Shown here piece by piece: positions 1,401-12,643 of a stretch of DNA of 64,000 nucleotides; position 1 is the first letter of the stretch, and each line of letters opens with the position of its first letter. The DNA is from Parvibium lacunae (lineage in GTDB: Bacteria; Pseudomonadota; Gammaproteobacteria; Burkholderiales; Burkholderiaceae_D). Location: NCBI RefSeq assembly GCF_003335215.1, contig NZ_QPGB01000001.1, positions 434,001 to 498,000 on the forward strand. The letters are read 5' to 3'. A model generated the notes under the pieces. That model did no database searches. It saw only the letters and a program-made list of their open reading frames with translations, and was not told the DNA's origin. A program made the position numbers and the translations under genes.

Positions 1401-4042
1401 GCTAGTAATTTTCGGAGTTCATACAGCGCATCCAGCGCCTGCTTGGGGCTAAGTTCATCCAAGCGCAAATCGGCTAATTGAGTGAGGACGGGATGTTCGC
1501 CTGCTGGTGCCGCTTGTGCAGCGGCCGCAGTGTTAAATAAATCAAACTGTGGCGTTTGGACCTGCGCTTGCGCCAGTTGTTCCAGCTCGGCTAGCTTTTG
1601 CCGCGCTTGGCGGATCACCGAGCCGGGCACCCCCGCCAGTTTGGCCACCTGTAAACCATAGCTTTGGCTGGCCGCACCCGCCTGCACGCTATGCAAAAAC
1701 ACAATGCTGTCGCCATGCTCGACGGCGGCGAGATGCACATTGGCAAGCTGCGAATAACGCTCAGCCAGTTGCGTCAGTTCAAAATAATGCGTGGCAAAGA
1801 GGGTCAGGCTACGGTTGGTTTCTACCAACCGTCGCGCAATCGCCCAAGCCAGCGCTAAGCCATCAAAGGTCGAGGTGCCGCGCCCGATTTCATCCATGAG
1901 GACCAAACTATTCGGGGTGGCGCTATTCAAAATCAGTGCCGCTTCGGTCATTTCCACCATAAACGTCGAGCGCCCGCCGGCTAAATCGTCGGCCGCGCCA
2001 ATGCGGGTAAAGATGCGGTCGAGCGGGCCAATCTGCGCCCGCTGGGCCGGTACAAAACAGCCGACGTAAGCAAGCAGCGCAATCAGCGCCGTTTGCCGCA
2101 TGTAGGTGGATTTACCGCCCATGTTCGGGCCGGTAATCAGCAGCATTTGCCGCGTGGGGTTGAGCACGCAATCGTTGGCAATAAAGTTTTCGATTTGCGG
2201 TTCGACCACCGGGTGGCGGCCCGCTTCAATCTGTAAACCCAGTTGTGGGCTGAGCTGGGGCTGCACCCAGTTGTAGCGCGCTGCCCGTTCGGCAAAGGCG
2301 CACAGCACATCCAGCTCGGCAATACAGTGGGCGAGCTGCTGGAGGGCGCCGATGTGCGGCTGGAGTTGTTCCAGCACTTGCTCAAACAGGTATTTTTCCC
2401 GCGCTAGCGCCCGGTCTTGTGCCGATAACGCTTTGTCTTCAAAGGTTTTTAGCTCGGGCGTGATGTAGCGCTCGGCATTTTTCAGCGTTTGGCGGCGGCG
2501 GTAATCCTCCGGCACTTTATCGGCTTGGCCATTGGTGACTTCAATGTAAAAGCCATGCACCTTATTAAATTCCACCCGCAAATTGGCGATGCCGGTGCGG
2601 GTGCGTTCGCGGGTTTCGAGGTCCAGCAAAAACTCGCCGCAGTTAGTTTGAATCGCCCGCAGTTCGTCTAGCTCCGCATCAAAGCCAGTTGCGATCACGC
2701 CGCCATCACGCAGATTGGTGCTGGGTTCCGGGGCAATCGCCGCTTGCAGGAGCGCCAGCGTCGCGGGGGGCGCATGCAGATGGGTCATGAACGGTTGCAG
2801 GCTTTCTAGCGGCTGCCCACTGTTTTCGTAGTGGGCTTGGCGCGTGGCCAGAATCTGTTGCAGGTCGGGCAGGGCGTGCAGCGAATCGCGCAAGCCCGAC
2901 AAGTCACGCGGACGCGCTTGGCGCAAGGCAATGCGCGTGGCAATCCGCTCAATATCGGCTTGCTGGCGTAGTTCGCTGCGTAGCGGCTCATACAGTGGTC
3001 CGAGCGCTTGTGGTGTATCCAAGAGCTCGGCCACGGCGGCATGCCGTTGCTGTGGCACGCTTTGCTGGCGCGGCGGATGATGCAACCAATGCCGCAGGCG
3101 GCGGCTGCCCATGTGGGTGGCGCAGACATCCAGCAGCGAATACAGGGTAGGGGACTCGGTGCCGCGCAGGGTTTCGGTGATTTCTAAGTTGCGGCGCGTG
3201 GCCGGGTCGAGCGTAATGAAGGCGCTTTCGTCTTCCACCACCACACCCTGCACATGGCTCAGCGCTTGCCCCTGCATCTCCTGCGCATAGCGCAGCAGGG
3301 CGGCAGTGGCGGCCACGGCGGTGGGCAGGGCATCCAACCCCAAACCTTGTAAATTTTGCACGGCGAAGTGGCGCGCCACTTGCTCGTTCGCCGCAGGCTG
3401 GGCATAGTGCCACACCGGTAGGCGCACACAGCGCAGGGTCGCCGGCAACGCTTGGCTGATGCGCGCCGCCAACCCATCCGGCACCAATACTTCAGCGAGG
3501 TTGAGGCGGGCGAGTTGCGTGGGCAGGCTCTCCAAGCCACATTCCAGCACATGCAAAGCCCCGCTGGCGACGTTTAACCAGGCCAAACCCAGTTGCGTGG
3601 GTTGCTCAGCGTGAGGACACAAAGCGAGCAAGAGACTGTCGGATTTTTCAGGCAGCAGATTGCTATCGGTGAGCGTACCCGGCGTGACAATCCGCACCAC
3701 TTTACGCTCTACCGGGCCTTTACTGGTGGCGGGGTCGCCAATTTGCTCGCAAATCGCCACCGATTCACCTTGCTTAATCAGCTTGGCGAGGTATTGCTCC
3801 ATCGAATGAAACGGCACCCCGGCCATTTTGATCGGCTGGCCCGCGCTTTGCCCGCGCGTAGTCAGCGTAATGCCGAGCAGGCGCGCGGCGCGTTCGGCAT
3901 CTTCAAAAAACAGCTCGTAAAAATCCCCCATGCGATAAAACACCAACGTATTCGGGTGTTCGCGCTGCACCTGATCTTTGATGCGCAGGTACTGCTGCAT
4001 CATGGGCGTATGCGTGGCGGTGTTTTTATCGGCAGTACTCAT
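1397..4042 (-). CDS. mutS: DNA mismatch repair protein MutS
   Basis: An 881-residue protein, the normal MutS length, which recognises base mismatches and small loops. The N-terminal mismatch-binding motif [11 protein letters not shown] (around residues 35-45, with the Phe-x-Glu wedge) is intact. The lever/clamp region follows, then the ABC ATPase with Walker [14 protein letters not shown] (about residues 637-650), the Walker B segment [16 protein letters not shown] (about 710) and the downstream ATHYFEL motif. The start ATG is followed by a short non-conserved lead before MMQQYLRIK. It is transcribed away from moaC and its stop overlaps the phosphoesterase start. Confidence 0.98.
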
Positions 4043-5852: not shown

Positions 5853-7025
5853 ATGCGCAAGAAAATTATTGTGATTGGTGCCGGTCTGGCTGGCGCGGTC
5901 TGTGCCCAGACTTTGCACGCCGCAGGCCACCAAGTAGTGGTGCTGGAAAAGGCGCGTGGTGTGGGCGGCCGCATGAGCACTCGCCGCATTTCCACTGAAT
6001 TAAGCGGTTTAGGCTTGGTGCCCGTGACCTTTGATCATGGCGCTCAGTATTTTCGGGCGCGCCACCCGGAGTTTCAGCGTCGGGTGGCATTGGCGCAGCA
6101 GCAGGGTTTGGTGGCCCCATGGGCCGCCAGGCATGGCAAGGTAGAAGGGGCGGGGAACCTCGAACCGCTCACGCCCGACAATACAGAACCCGCAGCGCGC
6201 TGGGTCGCGGTGCCCGATATGCCAAACTGGATTCGTAGTTTGCTCAACCCGATGACGGTGCGGGTGAATACCCGTGCGGCGGCACTGACTATGGAGCGAA
6301 GTGCGGCAGGCGAACTTAGCTGGACGGTGCAAGATGAGCAGGGGGCTACCCTGGAGACGGCGGATGCCGTGGTGCTGGCGATGCCACCCGCACAAGCCGC
6401 TGTCTTGTGCGCCCCGTATCAACCCACATGGGCAAACCATCTTACCCAATGGCCGATGGACCCGTGCTGGACCTGGATGGCCCTGACGGATGAAATCAAA
6501 ATCGCGCCCAGTGACATTCACCGCAAAGGCTGGGCTAGCGTCGATAGCGTGCAGCTGTTGGATCATCCTCTGGCGTGGGTGGCCCGTAATCACCACAAAC
6601 CCAGTCGGCAATTGGCAAAGGGTAAAGAAGCGTGGGTCGTGCAAGCCAGCCCAGCGTGGACCACGGCCCACCTTGATCTCCCCGCCGCAGAGGCCGCCAG
6701 CGCCATGCAGGGATTGTGGCGTGATTTACTTGGCCCAGCGGCACGTGAGGTAACTGTCCATTATCAAGCCGCACATCGCTGGCTGTATGCGCGGGCCGGC
6801 TTGCCTGCTGCGGCGCTACCGGCTGAGTTACAGCAAGCAGCGTGGGTGGATGAAAAGCTAGGCTTGGCTTGTTGCGGCGATTATCTGGGCTATGCCCATC
6901 TAGCGTTACACGCGCAGCCTGAAGCGCCACCTGCTGCGTTAGCTCGGGGCAGTCGCATCGAAGATGCCTGGTGGAGTGGCTGGCAATGTGCGCAGCAATA
7001 TTTAGCGGCCTGGGGGCAAGCCTAG
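5853..7025 (+). CDS. FAD-dependent amine-oxidase/renalase-like oxidoreductase
   Basis: A 390-residue protein with an N-terminal Rossmann FAD-binding motif (IVIGAGLAGAVCA, residues 5-17, then VVLEKARGVGGRMSTRR, around residues 30-45). The GG-R-M-S-TR motif is typical of the flavin-containing amine-oxidase/renalase group (COG3380-like). The family is frequently found beside photolyase genes in proteobacteria; its reaction there is not established. It is the first gene of the operon, and only 4 bases separate its stop from the next ATG. A role in flavin redox or cofactor supply to the downstream photolyases is my inference. Confidence 0.8.
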   Translation: MRKKIIVIGAGLAGAVCAQTLHAAGHQVVVLEKARGVGGRMSTRRISTELSGLGLVPVTFDHGAQYFRARHPEFQRRVALAQQQGLVAPWAARHGKVEGAGNLEPLTPDNTEPAARWVAVPDMPNWIRSLLNPMTVRVNTRAAALTMERSAAGELSWTVQDEQGATLETADAVVLAMPPAQAAVLCAPYQPTWANHLTQWPMDPCWTWMALTDEIKIAPSDIHRKGWASVDSVQLLDHPLAWVARNHHKPSRQLAKGKEAWVVQASPAWTTAHLDLPAAEAASAMQGLWRDLLGPAAREVTVHYQAAHRWLYARAGLPAAALPAELQQAAWVDEKLGLACCGDYLGYAHLALHAQPEAPPAALARGSRIEDAWWSGWQCAQQYLAAWGQA

Positions 7026-7029
7026 GCCT

Positions 7030-8721
7030 ATGTCCGCCCACATCAGTGCGCCTCCCTCGTCGGTATCGCTGCCCGCTGCCATCGCTCAGCTGCCGAGTGA
7101 TTGGGTCTGGCAAATCGTCTGGTTCAAGCGTGATTTGCGGGTGGTGGATCATGCCCCGCTGTATCACGCCAGTCGCGCTGGCCCGGTGCTCGCCCTGTAT
7201 GTGTTTGAGCCGAGCTTACAAACCGCCCCCGACTATGCGGATCAGCATGGGCAGTTTGCTTACGAGTGTTTGCAAGATTTACAGCCCGCGCTGCACGCCT
7301 TGAATATTCCCCTGTGGGTGGTGCGCGCTGAGGTATTGCCAGTGCTGCAAACTCTGTATACACACTGGCCACAGCTAGCCCTGCACAGCCACGAAGAAAC
7401 GGGCAATGGCCTGACGTTTGAGCGTGATCGTGCGGTGGCTCGCTGGTGTCGTGATGTCGGCGTGACCTGGCACGAATATCCGCAGCATGGCGTGGTGCGT
7501 CGATTAGCTGCCCAGGGCGGTCGGGCGCAATGGACGGCACACTGGCAAGCACGCATGACCGCTGCGTCTTGGCCCACCCCGCAAATACAGCAAGGGCGTG
7601 CAGTTGCCAAACAACTACTACTGCCCAGCCGCAGCGCACTTGGTTTGGACCCAAAAGAAGGGAACCCGCTACGTCAGCGCGGTGGCCGTGAGCAGGGTTG
7701 GGCACGCTTTAATGCGTTTCTCGCCGATCACGTCCGTGAGTATCGGTATGGCCTCTCCAGCCCACGCACGGCACCGCGTGCTTGTTCGCGCCTGAGTCCG
7801 TATTTGGCCTACGGTGCCCTCTCCATGCGCGAAGTCCTGCAAGCTGGGTGGGAATGTCAGGCACAGTTACGCAGTATGCCCAATAGCCCTGACAGCAAGG
7901 CCCGGCTGGCGGGCTTGCGCGCGTTTGAAAGCCGCTTGCACTGGCACTGCCATTTCATGCAAAAGCTCGAATCCGAACCCGCGATTGAACACCGCAATAT
8001 GCATCCCGATTGGGTGGGCGTGCGCGAAGACCATCTCCGGCCTGATTGGCAAGCCGCATGGGCAGAAGGGGCGACAGGTTACCCTTTGATTGATGCGTGC
8101 ATGCAGATGCTACGGCAAACGGGCTGGCTGAATTTTCGGATGCGCGCGATGCTGATTAGCTTTTGTAGTTATCAGCTTTGGCAACCTTGGCAAGCGCCCG
8201 CCTGGCATCTCGCCCGCTGTTTTTTGGATTACGAACCGGGCATTCATTACCCGCAAATTCAAATGCAATCCGGTGTCACCGGCATCAACGCCGTGCGCAT
8301 GTATAACCCGATTAAACAGGCGCAAGACCATGATCCTGACGGGTATTTTGTGAAGCGCTGGTTGCCCGTTCTGCGCCGTGTGCCTGCACCGTATATGTTT
8401 CAGCCTTGGCTGATGCCCTCGGCCTTACAAGATAAATTAGGCGTGCGGATTGGTCGAGATTATCCCGCGCCGCTGGTTGACCTGACCCAAGCCACCCGGC
8501 TGGCACGCGCGCGTTACAGCGCATGGCGTGAACAGGTGCAACGCAGTCATAGCCTGGCGGTGCTGGAAAAACACGGCAGCCGCGCCGGACGCTGGACCCC
8601 GCAGCAACGGCGTCCTGATCACCCTTTGGACGATGCGCCACGTCGGCGTGCTTCTCGCGCAAGCTCCGCATCCCTATCTTCAGAACAACTGAGTTTTGAT
8701 TGGCAGGAGCCAATACCATGA
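7030..8721 (+). CDS. Cryptochrome/photolyase family protein, divergent FAD site
   Basis: A 563-residue protein with the N-terminal photolyase alpha/beta domain (IVWFKRDLRVVDHAPL, around residues 31-46) and the C-terminal FAD-binding domain (YPLIDACMQMLRQTGWLNFRMRAMLISF and DYPAPLVDL). It is clearly a photolyase homologue. However, the FAD-proximal segment reads DYEPGIHYPQIQMQSG, then VTGINAVRMYNP. Class I enzymes have NNGGWQW, then STG-DA-PYFRIFNP. By my alignment the two Trp that correspond to E. coli Trp382 and Trp384 are Ile410 and Met412. Its substrate or signalling role therefore cannot be assumed to be CPD repair. Its stop overlaps the next start as ATGA. Confidence 0.85.
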   Translation: MSAHISAPPSSVSLPAAIAQLPSDWVWQIVWFKRDLRVVDHAPLYHASRAGPVLALYVFEPSLQTAPDYADQHGQFAYECLQDLQPALHALNIPLWVVRAEVLPVLQTLYTHWPQLALHSHEETGNGLTFERDRAVARWCRDVGVTWHEYPQHGVVRRLAAQGGRAQWTAHWQARMTAASWPTPQIQQGRAVAKQLLLPSRSALGLDPKEGNPLRQRGGREQGWARFNAFLADHVREYRYGLSSPRTAPRACSRLSPYLAYGALSMREVLQAGWECQAQLRSMPNSPDSKARLAGLRAFESRLHWHCHFMQKLESEPAIEHRNMHPDWVGVREDHLRPDWQAAWAEGATGYPLIDACMQMLRQTGWLNFRMRAMLISFCSYQLWQPWQAPAWHLARCFLDYEPGIHYPQIQMQSGVTGINAVRMYNPIKQAQDHDPDGYFVKRWLPVLRRVPAPYMFQPWLMPSALQDKLGVRIGRDYPAPLVDLTQATRLARARYSAWREQVQRSHSLAVLEKHGSRAGRWTPQQRRPDHPLDDAPRRRASRASSASLSSEQLSFDWQEPIP

Positions 8722-10319
8722 ACACTTCCATGAGTGCCCCTAGCCATTTTGCCATCCCGGAACCGACGCGGCCAACGGGGGTGGCTTGCCGAAACTTGGT
8801 GGTGGTAACGGGCGACCAATTGAATCTCGATAGCGCCTTGTGGGAAGGCTTTGATCCCCAGCAAGATGTAGTGGTGCTAGCGGAAGTCCCCGCCGAAGCC
8901 ACCGAGGTTTGGAGCCACCGCGCCCGTATTGCCGTGTTTCTCAGTGCGATGCGGCACTTTGCGCTGACACTCGCCGCGCGGGGCTGGCCGGTTTGGTACT
9001 TGGCGCTCGGTCGCCATGCGTATCCCGATTTGACGAGTGTCTGGACGGCGGCCTTGGCCCGGTATCAGCCGCAGCAGGTGCGCGCACTCAGCATGGGGGA
9101 TTGGCGCGTCGAGCAGACCTTGATTCATACCTGTGCGGCGCAGGGCGTGGCGGTACAGTGGCTGGAGGATGATCATTTCCTGTGTTCGCGGGCGGATTTT
9201 GCGCGCTGGGCCAAGGGTAAACGCCAGTGGTTGATGGAGGGCTTTTACCGCGAGATGCGCAAACGCACGGGTTACTTGATGCTAGGTAATCAGCCGATTG
9301 GTGGTGCTTGGAATTTTGATGCAGAAAATCGCCAAGCCTTTGGTAAACAAGGCCCCGGTTTGCGTCCACCGCTGCCGGTGTTTACGCCAGATGCGATTAC
9401 CCAGGAGGTGTTAGCGCTGGTTGCTCGTGAGTTTCCGCAGCACCCCGGATCACTGGACCATTTCAATTGGCCAGTGACGCCCGCCCAGGCGGCGCTGGCA
9501 CTGGATGATTTTATTCAACATCGCTTGGTTGATTTTGGTCGTTATCAAGATGCGATGTGGACGGATGAGCCGTTTCTGTATCACTCGCTACTCGCGGTGC
9601 CGCTCAACCTCAAGCTGTTATCCCCCAAGCAAGTGCTGGATGCCGCACAAGCCGCGTATGAACGAGGCGTGGCGGATTTGGCAGCCACCGAGGGCTTTAT
9701 CCGGCAAATATTGGGCTGGCGCGAATTCATTCGAGGGGTGTATTGGCAAAGTATGCCCGCGCTGGACGAGGCGAATCATTTTGATCATCAGCATCCCTTG
9801 CCGGATTGGTACTGGACCGGCCAAACCCAGATGCAGTGCCTGCGCCAGAGTATTGGGCAAACCCTGCAACACGGTTATGCGCATCACATTCAGCGTTTGA
9901 TGGTGACGGGCAATTTTGCGCTACTCGCCGGGATTTTGCCGAGTGCCGTCAGCGCGTGGTACCGCGCAGTGTATGTGGATGCGGTGGCATGGGTAGAAAT
10001 GCCGAATACGCTGGGCATGGCGCTGTATGCCAATGGCGGGCGCTTTACGACCAAGCCCTACATTGCCAGTGGCGCGTACATCAAGCGCATGAGTAATTAT
10101 TGCGGCGGCTGTCGTTATCGGCCTGAACAAAAGACCGGGCCGCAGGCTTGTCCGTTCACCACGTTTTACTGGGATTTTTTAAACCGCCACCAAAGCCGTT
10201 TGCAGGGCAACCCGCGCATGGGCCTGATGCTGAAAAATTTAGAACGCTTGAGCGCCGCTGAACGCGCCGAGATCACGGCGTGCGCCGCCGATTACCGCGC
10301 CCGGCTGAATGAACTGTAA
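8718..10319 (+). CDS. Iron-sulfur bacterial cryptochrome/(6-4) photolyase (FeS-BCP, PhrB-like)
   Basis: A 533-residue protein from the ATG at 8718, which overlaps the preceding stop and has AGGAG 9 bases upstream. It has the photolyase-related N-terminal domain (VVTGDQLN) and the FeS-BCP C-terminal domain. Four Cys at residues 374, 462, 465 and 478 (spacings 88, 3 and 13) match the [4Fe-4S] ligand spacing I recall for Agrobacterium PhrB (350, 438, 441, 454). The YCGGCRY and ACPFT contexts support this. Characterised relatives are prokaryotic (6-4) photolyases. Predicted function: light-driven repair of (6-4) photoproducts in the cytoplasm. Confidence 0.9.
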   Translation: MNTSMSAPSHFAIPEPTRPTGVACRNLVVVTGDQLNLDSALWEGFDPQQDVVVLAEVPAEATEVWSHRARIAVFLSAMRHFALTLAARGWPVWYLALGRHAYPDLTSVWTAALARYQPQQVRALSMGDWRVEQTLIHTCAAQGVAVQWLEDDHFLCSRADFARWAKGKRQWLMEGFYREMRKRTGYLMLGNQPIGGAWNFDAENRQAFGKQGPGLRPPLPVFTPDAITQEVLALVAREFPQHPGSLDHFNWPVTPAQAALALDDFIQHRLVDFGRYQDAMWTDEPFLYHSLLAVPLNLKLLSPKQVLDAAQAAYERGVADLAATEGFIRQILGWREFIRGVYWQSMPALDEANHFDHQHPLPDWYWTGQTQMQCLRQSIGQTLQHGYAHHIQRLMVTGNFALLAGILPSAVSAWYRAVYVDAVAWVEMPNTLGMALYANGGRFTTKPYIASGAYIKRMSNYCGGCRYRPEQKTGPQACPFTTFYWDFLNRHQSRLQGNPRMGLMLKNLERLSAAERAEITACAADYRARLNEL

Positions 10320-10344
10320 GTCACTTGAGAGCAAAAAGGAAATC

Positions 10345-11133
10345 ATGATGCAAAGTATTTTAATCACAGGCGCGACTGGCGCGATTGGCAGTGCCCTGGC
10401 GCAACAAGTTTTACAGCAAGCCACTGCGCCCATTCATCTGCATCTCGTTGCACGGCAAGCCGAGCCGTTAGCCGCGCTTAGCGTGCAGTTAGCGGCGGTA
10501 CAGCCCGCCGCGCACATCGCCACCTACAGTGCCGACCTAACACAGGAGAGTGCGGTACAGTCGCTGTTCGACACGCTGGCCGCCAGTGCAGCGCCACCCA
10601 CGGCACTCGCGCACTGTGTGGGCAGCACGGTCATCAAGCCCTTGCACTTAACGGCCTTGGCCGATTTCATGGCGCAATATGAGCAAAATACGGTATCGGC
10701 TTTTTTAGTGCTGAAGGCGTTTGTGGCACAGCGGCTCAAAGCCAAACAAGGCGGCAGCGCGGCCTTGGTCAGTTCAGTCGTGGCGCATGCGGGTTTTGCT
10801 AACCATGAGGCCGTGGCGGCAGCCAAGGCGGGCGTGGCGGCTTTAGTGCAATCGGCGGCGGCTACCTATGCGGATCGCGGCATACGCGTCAATGCCGTCT
10901 CGCCTGCGCTGACCCGTTCCAACCTCACGGCGCGTTTTATTGCTACGCCCGAAGCCGAGGCCCGCTCAGCGAGTATGATTCCCCTCGGACGCATTGGCGA
11001 ACCGGCAGACATTGCCGCGCTGCTCGCATTTTTACTGAGCGACCACAGCGCGTTTATCACCGGGCAAGTGATTCCGGTTGACGGCGGGCAAGCCCAGCTA
11101 AAACCTCTGCCAAAAATGACCGTTAGTAAATAA
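10345..11133 (+). CDS. SDR-fold protein lacking the catalytic Tyr
   Basis: A 262-residue short-chain dehydrogenase/reductase-fold protein. The start at 10345 is chosen over 10309 because AAAGGA lies 4 bases upstream and the NAD(P) motif ITGATGAIGSA then starts normally. The catalytic Ser (S143/S144) and Lys (K161) are in place. The expected Tyr of Y-x-x-x-K is Val157 (V-A-A-A-K), so the usual proton-transfer residue is absent. The same Tyr-less motif (H-E/A-x-hydrophobic-A-A-A-K) occurs in a divergent SDR subgroup often seen near photolyases, as I recall. Function is unknown. Confidence 0.8.
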   Translation: MMQSILITGATGAIGSALAQQVLQQATAPIHLHLVARQAEPLAALSVQLAAVQPAAHIATYSADLTQESAVQSLFDTLAASAAPPTALAHCVGSTVIKPLHLTALADFMAQYEQNTVSAFLVLKAFVAQRLKAKQGGSAALVSSVVAHAGFANHEAVAAAKAGVAALVQSAAATYADRGIRVNAVSPALTRSNLTARFIATPEAEARSASMIPLGRIGEPADIAALLAFLLSDHSAFITGQVIPVDGGQAQLKPLPKMTVSK

Positions 11134-11170: not shown

Positions 11171-12643
11171 ATGACCTCTTCGCAATCGACAACGAGCAAT
11201 CCCTATCCCCGCAGTCTGTTCTGGTTTCGCCGTGACCTGCGCCATACCGACAACGCGGGGCTGTATCGAGCGCTCACACAAAGCGCGCAAGTGCATTGCG
11301 TGTTTGTGTTTGATAAAACCATTTTGGATGCGCTGCCAAACAAGGCAGATCGCCGCGTGGAATTTATTTGGGAAAGCGTGCGTGAGCTGCAAACTGCGTT
11401 GCGTGAGGCAGGGGGCGATTTAATCGTGCTGCATGCGCATGCCGAGCAAGCCATTCCAGCGCTGGCCGCCAGCCTCGACGTGCAAGCCGTGTTTACGAAT
11501 GAAGACTATGAGCCAAGTGCGCTAGTGCGTGATGACAGTGTGGCAACCGCACTGGCCGCGCAGGGCAGGGCGTTTCATGCGTTTAAAGACCATGCGATTT
11601 TTGCGGCCGATGAAGTCATGAGTAAAACCGGGCAGCCGTATTCGGTGTTTACGCCCTACAAAAATGCCTGGCTACGTAAGCTGAATGAACACGGCTCAGA
11701 CTTTTATGTGCGCGCCTATCCCTGTGAGAACTATTGGCACAAGCTGGCTGCACCGACTAAGGGATTGGCGCAGACAGACGATTTACCTAGCTTAGAGGCC
11801 ATGGGTTTCGCCAGAACCAATTTGCTGTCGATCCCGATTCCCACTGGCATGCGCGGTGCACTGCAAGTCTTTGATGAATTTATGCCGCGCATGGATCGGT
11901 ATTTTGATCAGCGTAATTTCCCCGCGGTACGCGGGGTGTCGTACCTGTCGGTCCATAATCGTTTCGGCACTATCAGCCCGCGCTACTTGGCGCGCTTGGC
12001 GTGGCAACGTAATACCCATGGGGCGTCCGGTTGGTTAAATGAGCTGGTGTGGCGCGACTTTTATTTTCATATTCTCACGCACTATCCGCATGTGGTGGGC
12101 CATGCGTTTAAGCGCAAATATGAAAACTTGGCTTGGGAAAACGACGCCGAAAAATTTGCCGCTTGGTGTGAAGCGCGTACCGGTTACCCAATCGTAGATG
12201 CCGCCATGCAGCAGATTTTGCAAACTGGCTTCATGCACAATCGCCTCCGCATGATTGTGGCGAGCTTCCTCACCAAACATTTACTGATTGACTGGCGCTG
12301 GGGCGAACGCTTTTTTGCCGAGCATTTGAACGACTTTGATTTGGCCGCCAACAATGGGGGCTGGCAGTGGGCGGCTTCGACGGGCTGCGATGCGCAGCCG
12401 TATTTCCGTATTTTTAATCCGGTCATGCAATCTGAAAAATTTGATGCCGAGGGTAAATTTATTCGGCGCTATTTACCTGCACTGGAAAAGGTACCCAGCA
12501 AATTTATTCATGCACCGTGGACCATGCCGTCGCTGGAACAAAAGCTGGCGGGCTGTGTGATTGGCACCGATTATCCGGCACCGATTGTGGAGCATGCGGT
12601 GGCTAGGGAAAAGGCGTTGGCATTGTTTAAAGTGCTGGGTTAA
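11171..12643 (+). CDS. phrB: Class I CPD photolyase
   Basis: A 490-residue deoxyribodipyrimidine photolyase that splits cyclobutane pyrimidine dimers with blue or near-UV light. The N-terminal antenna domain starts SLFWFRRDLRHTDNAGLYRAL. The FAD domain contains TGYPIVDAAMQQILQTGFMHNRLRMIVASFLTK, then NNGGWQWAASTG with Asn394 and Trp398/Trp400 in the places of E. coli Asn378, Trp382 and Trp384, then PYFRIFNP. All canonical FAD and electron-transfer residues I can check are present. No Shine-Dalgarno sequence is visible; translation may rely on the preceding SDR gene. It is the last gene of the operon, followed by a terminator. Confidence 0.96.
   Translation: MTSSQSTTSNPYPRSLFWFRRDLRHTDNAGLYRALTQSAQVHCVFVFDKTILDALPNKADRRVEFIWESVRELQTALREAGGDLIVLHAHAEQAIPALAASLDVQAVFTNEDYEPSALVRDDSVATALAAQGRAFHAFKDHAIFAADEVMSKTGQPYSVFTPYKNAWLRKLNEHGSDFYVRAYPCENYWHKLAAPTKGLAQTDDLPSLEAMGFARTNLLSIPIPTGMRGALQVFDEFMPRMDRYFDQRNFPAVRGVSYLSVHNRFGTISPRYLARLAWQRNTHGASGWLNELVWRDFYFHILTHYPHVVGHAFKRKYENLAWENDAEKFAAWCEARTGYPIVDAAMQQILQTGFMHNRLRMIVASFLTKHLLIDWRWGERFFAEHLNDFDLAANNGGWQWAASTGCDAQPYFRIFNPVMQSEKFDAEGKFIRRYLPALEKVPSKFIHAPWTMPSLEQKLAGCVIGTDYPAPIVEHAVAREKALALFKVLG

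Follow-up and report, generated by a model that had tools for sequence, protein, structure and literature searches.

We describe here a photolyase-like gene of Parvibium lacunae, at positions 7030 to 8721 of a 64,000-nucleotide stretch of contig NZ_QPGB01000001.1 (positions 434,001 to 498,000, forward strand; this whole stretch is called the window). Its product of 563 amino acids (aa) is a member of the photolyase/cryptochrome superfamily and, judged from its position in a tree, of a distinct and widespread branch of it. The tryptophans proximal to the flavin are replaced in this family by a fixed signature, the equivalents of the lesion pocket residues are changed, and many bacterial members end in a peptide that resembles a beta-clamp-binding motif. 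We suggest, with a probability of about 0.53, that the protein repairs DNA with the help of light while bound to the replication clamp, with a flavin that is kept reduced without the Trp triad and a lesion pocket that has been remodelled. The features on which this proposal depends are the following.

7030..8721, forward strand: Phr1-type photolyase-like protein, 563 aa, PF00875 plus PF03441 (open reading frame (ORF) translation, Pfam)
7114..7497, forward strand: N-terminal DNA_photolyase (antenna-type) domain PF00875, residues 29-156 (Pfam)
7924..8520, forward strand: FAD_binding_7 domain PF03441, residues 299-497 (Pfam)
7933..7965, forward strand: RLHWHCHFMQK helix, residues 302-312, equivalent to the E. 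coli E274-W277-R278 helix, with E274 replaced by Arg and W277 kept
8134..8151, forward strand: FRMRAM, residues 369-374, equivalent to E. coli NRLRMI, with N341 replaced by Phe, M345 by Ala and R344 kept
8188..8190, forward strand: Trp387, the equivalent of the middle triad Trp359, retained (30/30 unbiased and 96/96 fetched rows)
8245..8265, forward strand: HYPQIQM, residues 406-412, the family signature in place of NNGGWQW (MAFFT, hhalign)
8254..8284, forward strand: residues 409-419, the stretch named in a first-pass annotation of the sequence
8686..8703, forward strand: QLSFDW, residues 553-558, a beta-clamp-binding-like hexapeptide in the low-confidence C-terminal tail

The protein scores 79.2 bits with PF00875 and 214.3 bits with PF03441, against curated cut-offs of 26.6 and 27, and its AlphaFold2 (AF2) model has a mean predicted local distance difference test score (pLDDT) of 85.4. 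In the VIA comparison, the model gave Z = 36.5 with the E. coli class I structure 1dnp_A. The best 50 rows lie at Z = 33.2-36.9 and 22-26% identity, with class I, class III, plant, animal, 6-4 and DASH structures about equal; class II and FeS-BCP structures are missing from these 50 rows, which excludes nothing. Foldseek agrees with VIA on the PHR fold of the predicted model. Thus, with both Pfam domains above cut-off and a predicted PHR fold, the protein belongs to the superfamily.

The first-pass annotation had placed Ile410 and Met412 at the positions of E. coli Trp382 and Trp384, and the alignments bear this out: the HYPQIQM/NNGGWQW site aligns without gaps both in MAFFT and in a profile-profile comparison (hhalign) with 13 class I/III proteins, including E. 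coli PhrB. Its reading of VTGINAVRMY in place of the usual motif is confirmed at residues 416-425, as is the retention of Asn394, Trp398 and Trp400 by the sister gene at 11171, where NNGGWQW occupies residues 394-400. We take the E. coli residue numbers and roles to be those of the literature; the numbers in NP_415236 are higher by one. The proximal equivalences are then I410 to W383 (W382 in the literature), M412 to W385 (W384), and H406 to N379 (N378). The outer Trp of the triad (W306 in the literature) is substituted too, so two of the three are lost and the middle one is retained, as W387 for W360 (W359). Also retained are R372 for R345 (R344), D400 for D373 (D372), and W305 for W278 (W277). 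The changed pocket equivalents are R302 for E275 (E274), F369 for N342 (N341), and A373 for M346 (M345).

When 274 genomes of the class were searched in the manner of BLAST, 16 full or near-full places, the window included, scored 235 bits or more and other photolyases 138 bits or less, and the signature is fixed in alignment A1 of 15 sequences. The A1 profile found a member in 34 of 398 genomes of the phylum, at 423-738 bits, the next score being 266. A motif-aided scan of named genomes found at least 582 relatives, and the 80 with the best scores were retained; the record titles among these 80 loci include Pseudomonadota, Cyanobacteria, Planctomycetota, Verrucomicrobia, and others. Since the 80 loci were fetched with patterns holding part of the signature, their invariance is partly selected, and the count was therefore repeated on 30 rows from the 398-genome profile search, window included (the unbiased set). 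The fetched and unbiased sets have in common the window, L004 (= L150) and L012 (= L152).

His406, Met412, Trp387, Arg302, Trp305, and Tyr425 each occur in 30/30 unbiased rows, as do H308, F309, Q311, and K312. Position 373 is Ala in 29/30 and Ser in 1/30. Position 410 is V, I, F, A, L, M, T, or S and never Trp or Tyr (0/30); position 407 is Tyr or Trp in 30/30, and W384 is present in 19/30. Among the 96 fetched rows, His406, Gln409, Gln411, Met412, and Trp387 are found in 96/96, and position 410 is M, V, L, F, C, I, A, or S, again with no Trp or Tyr (0/96). In the tree set, the proximal Trp is retained by each of the 29 class I/III and DASH rows. As far as these alignments reach, the equivalents of E274, N341, M345, and W384 are all changed and fixed, or nearly so, across the family. 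Ten phage records matched, all at 25-29% identity and none near the family's 35-55%, and in three family frames of unusual length or type (L078, L086, L083) Pfam gave PF00875 and PF03441 only, with no extra fused domain.

The tree is a quick IQ-TREE of 79 rows with support from the Shimodaira-Hasegawa-like approximate likelihood ratio test (SH-aLRT) only, calculated without eukaryotic cryptochromes (CRYs), class II, FeS-BCP, or NewPHL proteins. The family and its intermediates split from class I/III plus DASH at 99; the class I/III rows form one group at 97, and the family, including a long-branched Marinobacter protein, is recovered at 100. None of the four classes considered next accommodates the protein. 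Class I is rejected because the family lies outside the class I/III group of this quick tree and because, of the W306-W359-W382 triad that marks class I together with W384 and E274, only W359 is retained. For CRY-DASH, the TIGR02765 score is 126.8 bits, whereas more than 317 is needed, and the protein lies outside the DASH clade. NewPHL proteins have an inverted topology, with an N-terminal FAD domain and no PF00875, whereas here PF00875 spans residues 29-156 and PF03441 residues 299-497. An FeS-BCP (6-4) photolyase would match PF04244, which has no match in the 563-aa protein and is found in the adjoining gene product. An 'uncharacterized CPF-related family', described as having a FAD domain and an unrecognisable C-terminal region (PMC9239080), fits NewPHL better.

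The sister rows from Halomicrobium, Tolypothrix, and Nostoc have Arg302, Trp305, and FRMRAM in common with the family and retain the proximal Trp, which is also present in 7/7 haloarchaeal motif strings. In the Marinobacter intermediate row, Ile stands at the proximal position, Trp387 and Met412 are gone, and the chain ends in QLGLL. Because the sisters retain it, the loss of the proximal Trp probably took place, on the sample examined, on the stem that leads to the bacterial family. The Tolypothrix and Nostoc plasmid sisters (L140, L141) have, beside the retained Trp, a QMQSG motif and an Asp at the flavin-N5 position, as in plant cryptochromes.

How could the flavin be kept reduced in such a protein? 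Photolyase repair begins from FADH-, the reduced form of flavin adenine dinucleotide (FAD), and Kavakli and Sancar in 2004 reportedly found that triad photoreduction is dispensable for photoreactivation in E. coli, the triad mutants being active in vivo. Electron transfer thus need not use other residues. The first-pass annotation had stated that it must do so, and this part of its interpretation is not supported; the absence of the proximal Trp is confirmed, and another role or substrate is possible in view of the changed pocket residues. The most serious alternative to our proposal is nevertheless a photolyase in which photoreduction persists by another relay to FAD, for example through Trp/Tyr407, Tyr425, Trp384, and Trp387. 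W387, Y425, and the aromatic residue at 407 are each present in 30/30 unbiased rows and W384 in 19/30, and alternative relays occur in other photolyase classes. However, conservation alone shows no electron path, and the aromatic residue at 407 is also found in the 7/7 haloarchaeal strings that retain the proximal Trp, which means that it did not originate as a substitute. We consider such a relay rather unlikely.

The QLSFDW hexapeptide, which the first-pass annotation had not noticed, lies outside the stretch named there, in a tail (residues 531-563) where the AF2 model has pLDDT < 50. In many members, the last conserved block, which is KHGSR-like, is followed by a basic linker and then by the peptide, often as the final residues; QLSLF, QLGFDF, QLSLDL, QGELF, and QISFDF are examples. 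The published beta-clamp consensus is Q-phi-x-[L/M][F/L] or Q-phi-x-[L/M]-x-[F/L] (PMC13254535), and the motifs given elsewhere are QL(S/D)LF for the beta clamp and Qxx[I/L]xxFF for PCNA (PMC9690074). Our own strict pattern, Q[LMI]x([LM]F or [LFM]x[FLWM]) within the last 30 residues, and a loose one were composed after the tails had been inspected, and the published consensus serves as the independent test.

The strict pattern matched 15/30 unbiased tails (shuffled mean 0.07, maximum 1) and 49/97 fetched members (shuffled mean 0.18, maximum 2), compared with 0/118 other photolyases (class I/III 0/26, DASH 0/29, DPRP 0/46, NewPHL-like 0/17) and 5/558 background ORFs, four of them one repeated frame. 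With the published consensus the counts are 9/30 unbiased (shuffled 0.16) and 30/97 fetched (shuffled 0.46), compared with 1/118 other photolyases and 8/558 background frames, the latter at the shuffled level of 8.3. The loose pattern matched 19/30 unbiased tails, and 5/46 DPRP tails, near the shuffled 2.7. A broad pattern has a match in 91/120 tails, a few of them doubtful, such as L080. The 97 fetched tails include four plasmid members (L116, L117, L146, L148) and leave out L013 and L035, whose frame leaves the contig, and L067, which stops before the tail (with it, 49/98). The ORFs of the background and of the haloarchaeal control were delimited mechanically, and some of them are not real genes. 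By these counts of sequence matches, a beta-clamp-type motif is enriched at the level of the family, with part of the family lacking it.

If the tail docks on the clamp, the hook is predicted to switch with the clamp of the domain. The haloarchaeal set consists of seven distinct plasmid relatives among the 12 best rows, and six of the seven have an end of the PCNA-interacting peptide (PIP) box type, QSSLDAF, QASLDAF, QASLSDY, QRGLDAY, or QQQLADY (shuffled mean 0.03, maximum 2), with one aromatic residue instead of two. The bacterial clamp motif is found in 0/7 of them, and PIP-type ends occur in 1/83 other haloarchaeal ORFs and in 1/93 bacterial members. In this comparison, the tail motif appears to track each domain's own clamp, beta in bacteria and the PCNA type in haloarchaea. 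An archaeal homologue on a plasmid of Halorubrum sp. BOL3-1 (L187) is annotated as two pieces and may be broken.

In the host, MutS has a clamp-binding-like QFDLF at residues 832-836 (window 1535-1549, reverse strand), and an Hda-like protein (158 bits, below the Hda cut-off) has an N-terminal QLLLDL, while a frame for an IMS-family (DinB/UmuC-type) polymerase gave no clamp-binding motif match. The QLx(L/F)x(F/L) peptide might instead be another short motif, such as a degradation signal or a docking site for some partner, that resembles a clamp hook. The variation within the broad pattern, with Phe at position 4 in 30/91 tails, would agree with this, as would the polymerase frame and the one subclade in which the tail is missing. 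Such a motif would not readily explain why the peptide is enriched over shuffles and over the tails of 118 other photolyases, also with the published consensus, why a PIP box replaces it in haloarchaea, or why similar peptides occur in the host Hda-like protein and MutS, and we regard it as unlikely.

The gene is the second in a co-directional run of five, the others being:

5853..7025, forward strand: NAD(P)/FAD-dependent amine-oxidase-like protein, ending 4 base pairs upstream of the photolyase
8718..10319, forward strand: FeS-BCP/DPRP-type (prokaryotic 6-4) photolyase, PF04244 (Pfam)
10309..11133, forward strand: short-chain dehydrogenase, same gene run
11171..12643, forward strand: class I-type photolyase with a complete NNGGWQW motif

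The likely ATG of the FeS-BCP gene, at 8718, overlaps the stop codon of 7030-8721 as ATGA. The host genome has two PF00875 proteins, both inside the window, and one PF04244 protein, the adjoining FeS-BCP photolyase. A scan for promoters and terminators was uninformative (promoter-like sites: 1 found, 4.0 expected; terminator-like sites: 8 found, 8.8 expected). The amine-oxidase-like neighbour is possibly a flavin reductant, or part of a light-induced gene set; a protein of this kind is also near the family in 6/80 named loci (L045, L049, L065, L073, L080, L093).

FeS-BCP photolyases are found in 31/34 genomes with the family and in 77/364 without it (Fisher p = 2e-16, relatedness ignored), and the two genes lie within 6 kb of each other in 12 of these 31 genomes. 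At least one further profile match at E <= 1e-30 is present in 32/34 genomes with the family, compared with any match in 189/364 without it. Another photolyase type lies nearby in 49/80 named loci (mean 9.7 kb per locus), namely FeS-BCP in 28, DASH in 15, NewPHL-like (by score and length criteria) in 13, and class I/III in 1. Pfam scans of six NewPHL-like neighbours (L033, L036, L044, L053, L066, L103) placed the FAD domain close to the N-terminus and gave no match to PF00875; those at L070, L079, L094, L106, L110, and L146 were assigned by score. A tiny Cys-rich, zinc-ribbon-like DUF2256 protein stands beside the family in 20/80 named loci (two Pfam-checked) and is recorded at L037 (6549-6713), L010 (3052-3210), and 25 further loci.

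On Deinococcus plasmids, the family member is fused in frame to a PF03167 uracil-DNA glycosylase (UDG), Pfam-checked in L114 and L115, and seven records carry a UDG annotation beneath the family match. The fusion loci, annotated only as UDG, are in D. gobiensis plasmid P2 (L114), D. proteolyticus (L115), and D. radiophilus (L149). A QPNLF peptide between the domains may be the UDG's own N-terminal motif, and the annotated start of the D. gobiensis fusion falls inside the photolyase part.

Phr1 to Phr8 have been described in picocyanobacteria (Haney et al. 2022, mBio, PMC9426592). Cyanobium FACHB-13342 has three PF03441 proteins: a class I enzyme, a 323-aa Phr4-like frame about 3 kb away, and the family member; phr3 is described as lying several genes from phr4/5 (PMC9426592). 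Since the other two match class I and Phr4-like proteins, the family is most likely the Phr1 of marine Synechococcus, Cyanobium, and Prochlorococcus, by elimination in this one genome. In the same paper, phr1 disruption in Synechococcus cut survival of ultraviolet (UV)-C six-fold, and phr1 raised the UV-C survival of E. coli lexA3 delta-phr 10-20-fold in the light and 5-20-fold less in the dark, with UV-B survival of that strain unaffected (PMC9426592). In searches of open-licence PMC papers, we found no report of a missing triad together with the GIHxxQxQM signature, nor of a clamp motif in any photolyase.

In Vibrio cholerae, VC1814 is presumably the DASH cryptochrome, and for this reason the phr1-like gene of that species would be Cry2 (VC1392), which is thus probably in the same branch; a member of the family is also present in V. 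campbellii. Haney et al. call the phr1-like gene of V. cholerae a methenyltetrahydrofolate (MTHF)-type cryptochrome (PMC9426592). VC1392 is induced by blue light (PMC5241685), its function was called unknown (PMC4019646), and both V. cholerae Crys have been called DASH or single-stranded DNA (ssDNA) photolyases (PMC5241685, PMC11976125). The gene family is probably already in print, as Phr1 and probably VcCry2.

That cryptochrome name raises the possibility of a light or redox sensor that regulates partners, without DNA repair and with a photocycle changed by the His beside flavin N5. The substitution of all four equivalents of E274, N341, M345, and W384 would be consistent with a sensor, as would the lack of a blue-light survival phenotype reported for the cry2 mutant (PMC11976125). 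However, a sensor would hardly account for the company of photolyases, the UDG fusion in Deinococcus, the clamp and PIP motifs of the tails, or the light-dependent rescue of E. coli from UV-C by the probable orthologue Phr1 (PMC9426592), and we find it improbable. The first-pass annotation had allowed for a sensor; another role is indeed possible, but the operon, the FeS-BCP company, the UDG fusion, and the UV-C protection by Phr1 disfavour a pure sensor. The 25% identity to class I and the loss of canonical residues might suggest a paralogue of the sister class I photolyase that is in decay and no longer functional. This reading is so improbable that we rejected it, because the branch stands apart from class I and DASH at SH-aLRT 99% (quick tree), the frame is open, 34/398 sampled genomes of the phylum carry the family, and the signature residues are invariant family-wide, so that the Trp loss is not decay.

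In the mechanism that we propose for clamp-docked repair, the protein would bind FAD, with His406 beside flavin N5, and the FAD would be kept reduced by chemical reductants and not through the Trp triad. Under blue or UV-A light, FADH- would inject an electron into a UV lesion. The flexible basic tail ending in Q-L-x-(L/F)-x-(F/L/W) would dock the protein on the bacterial sliding clamp, or on PCNA in the archaeal sisters, so that the enzyme would work at or behind replication forks, alongside the co-encoded FeS-BCP 6-4 photolyase; repair at forks is what the clamp-like tail suggests. Because the pocket is remodelled (E274 to Arg, N341 to Phe, M345 to Ala, W384 to Met, and His by N5), the enzyme probably acts on something other than the ordinary double-stranded thymine cyclobutane pyrimidine dimer (CPD) of the sister class I enzyme. 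A 6-4-related or fork-specific lesion, we speculate, would be in keeping with a Phr1 effect seen in UV-C only and with the association with 6-4 photolyases. More tentatively, at somewhat short of an even chance, the family may be an unnamed photolyase class of clamp clients, attached to beta by a clamp-binding motif (CBM), to PCNA by a PIP box, and fused to UDG in Deinococcus. At forks, its members would act on UV lesions that are perhaps 6-4-derived, deaminated, or single-stranded, and in bacteria they would do so with a His-gated flavin and no Trp wire.

Several observations weigh against clamp-docked repair by the protein. QLSFDW itself departs from the published consensus, with Phe at position 4, where L/M is expected, and Trp at position 6, where F/L is expected. 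The strict motif is missing in 15/30 unbiased members and the published one in 21/30. A marine gammaproteobacterial subclade, which probably includes V. cholerae Cry2, lacks the tail motif, both Nostocales sisters (Tolypothrix, Nostoc) lack a clamp-like tail, the Natronomonas sister has no PIP-type tail, and the host IMS-family polymerase frame lacks a clamp-binding match. With the equivalents of E274, N341, and M345 gone, lesion binding could also have been lost. The identity with Phr1 comes from elimination in a single Cyanobium genome, without a direct sequence match; disruption of phr1 in Synechococcus has no effect under UV-B and, of four, the mildest under UV-C (PMC9426592), and V. cholerae cry2 mutants show no blue-light phenotype (PMC11976125).

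What would a clamp-docked photolyase mean? If the proposal is true, a branch that carries the clamp peptide of its own domain links photoreactivation directly to the replisome. This would also explain the presence of the gene in many bacteria besides class I, DASH, NewPHL, and 6-4 photolyases. Photolyases are usually viewed as free-roaming enzymes that locate lesions unaided. Furthermore, the natural loss of two of the three triad tryptophans, together with a fixed His by flavin N5, would be an evolved test of the role of the triad in repair in vivo.

Among known systems, the class I CPD photolyases (E. coli PhrB and the sister at 11171-12643) resemble the 563-aa protein in fold, in the R344-D372 pair at the FAD site, and in W277 and W359, but W306, W382, W384, E274, N341, M345, and N378 are all substituted in it. 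The FeS-BCP prokaryotic (6-4) photolyase is its neighbour and co-occurring partner and differs in the N-terminal domain (PF04244). NewPHL and Prochlorococcus Phr7, which are ssDNA CPD photolyases, have PF03441 in common with the family, whereas the six NewPHL-like neighbours scanned lack its N-terminal PF00875. Phr1 has the same N-terminal photolyase domain and FAD domain; in RS9916, its gene is described as not near other repair genes, whereas the gene described here lies in a run with two photolyases (PMC9426592). V. cholerae Cry2 probably falls in the marine subclade without the C-terminal motif, unlike the 563-aa protein. Peptides like that of the family tail occur in beta-clamp clients such as MutS, Hda, and RecB, which are themselves not photolyases.

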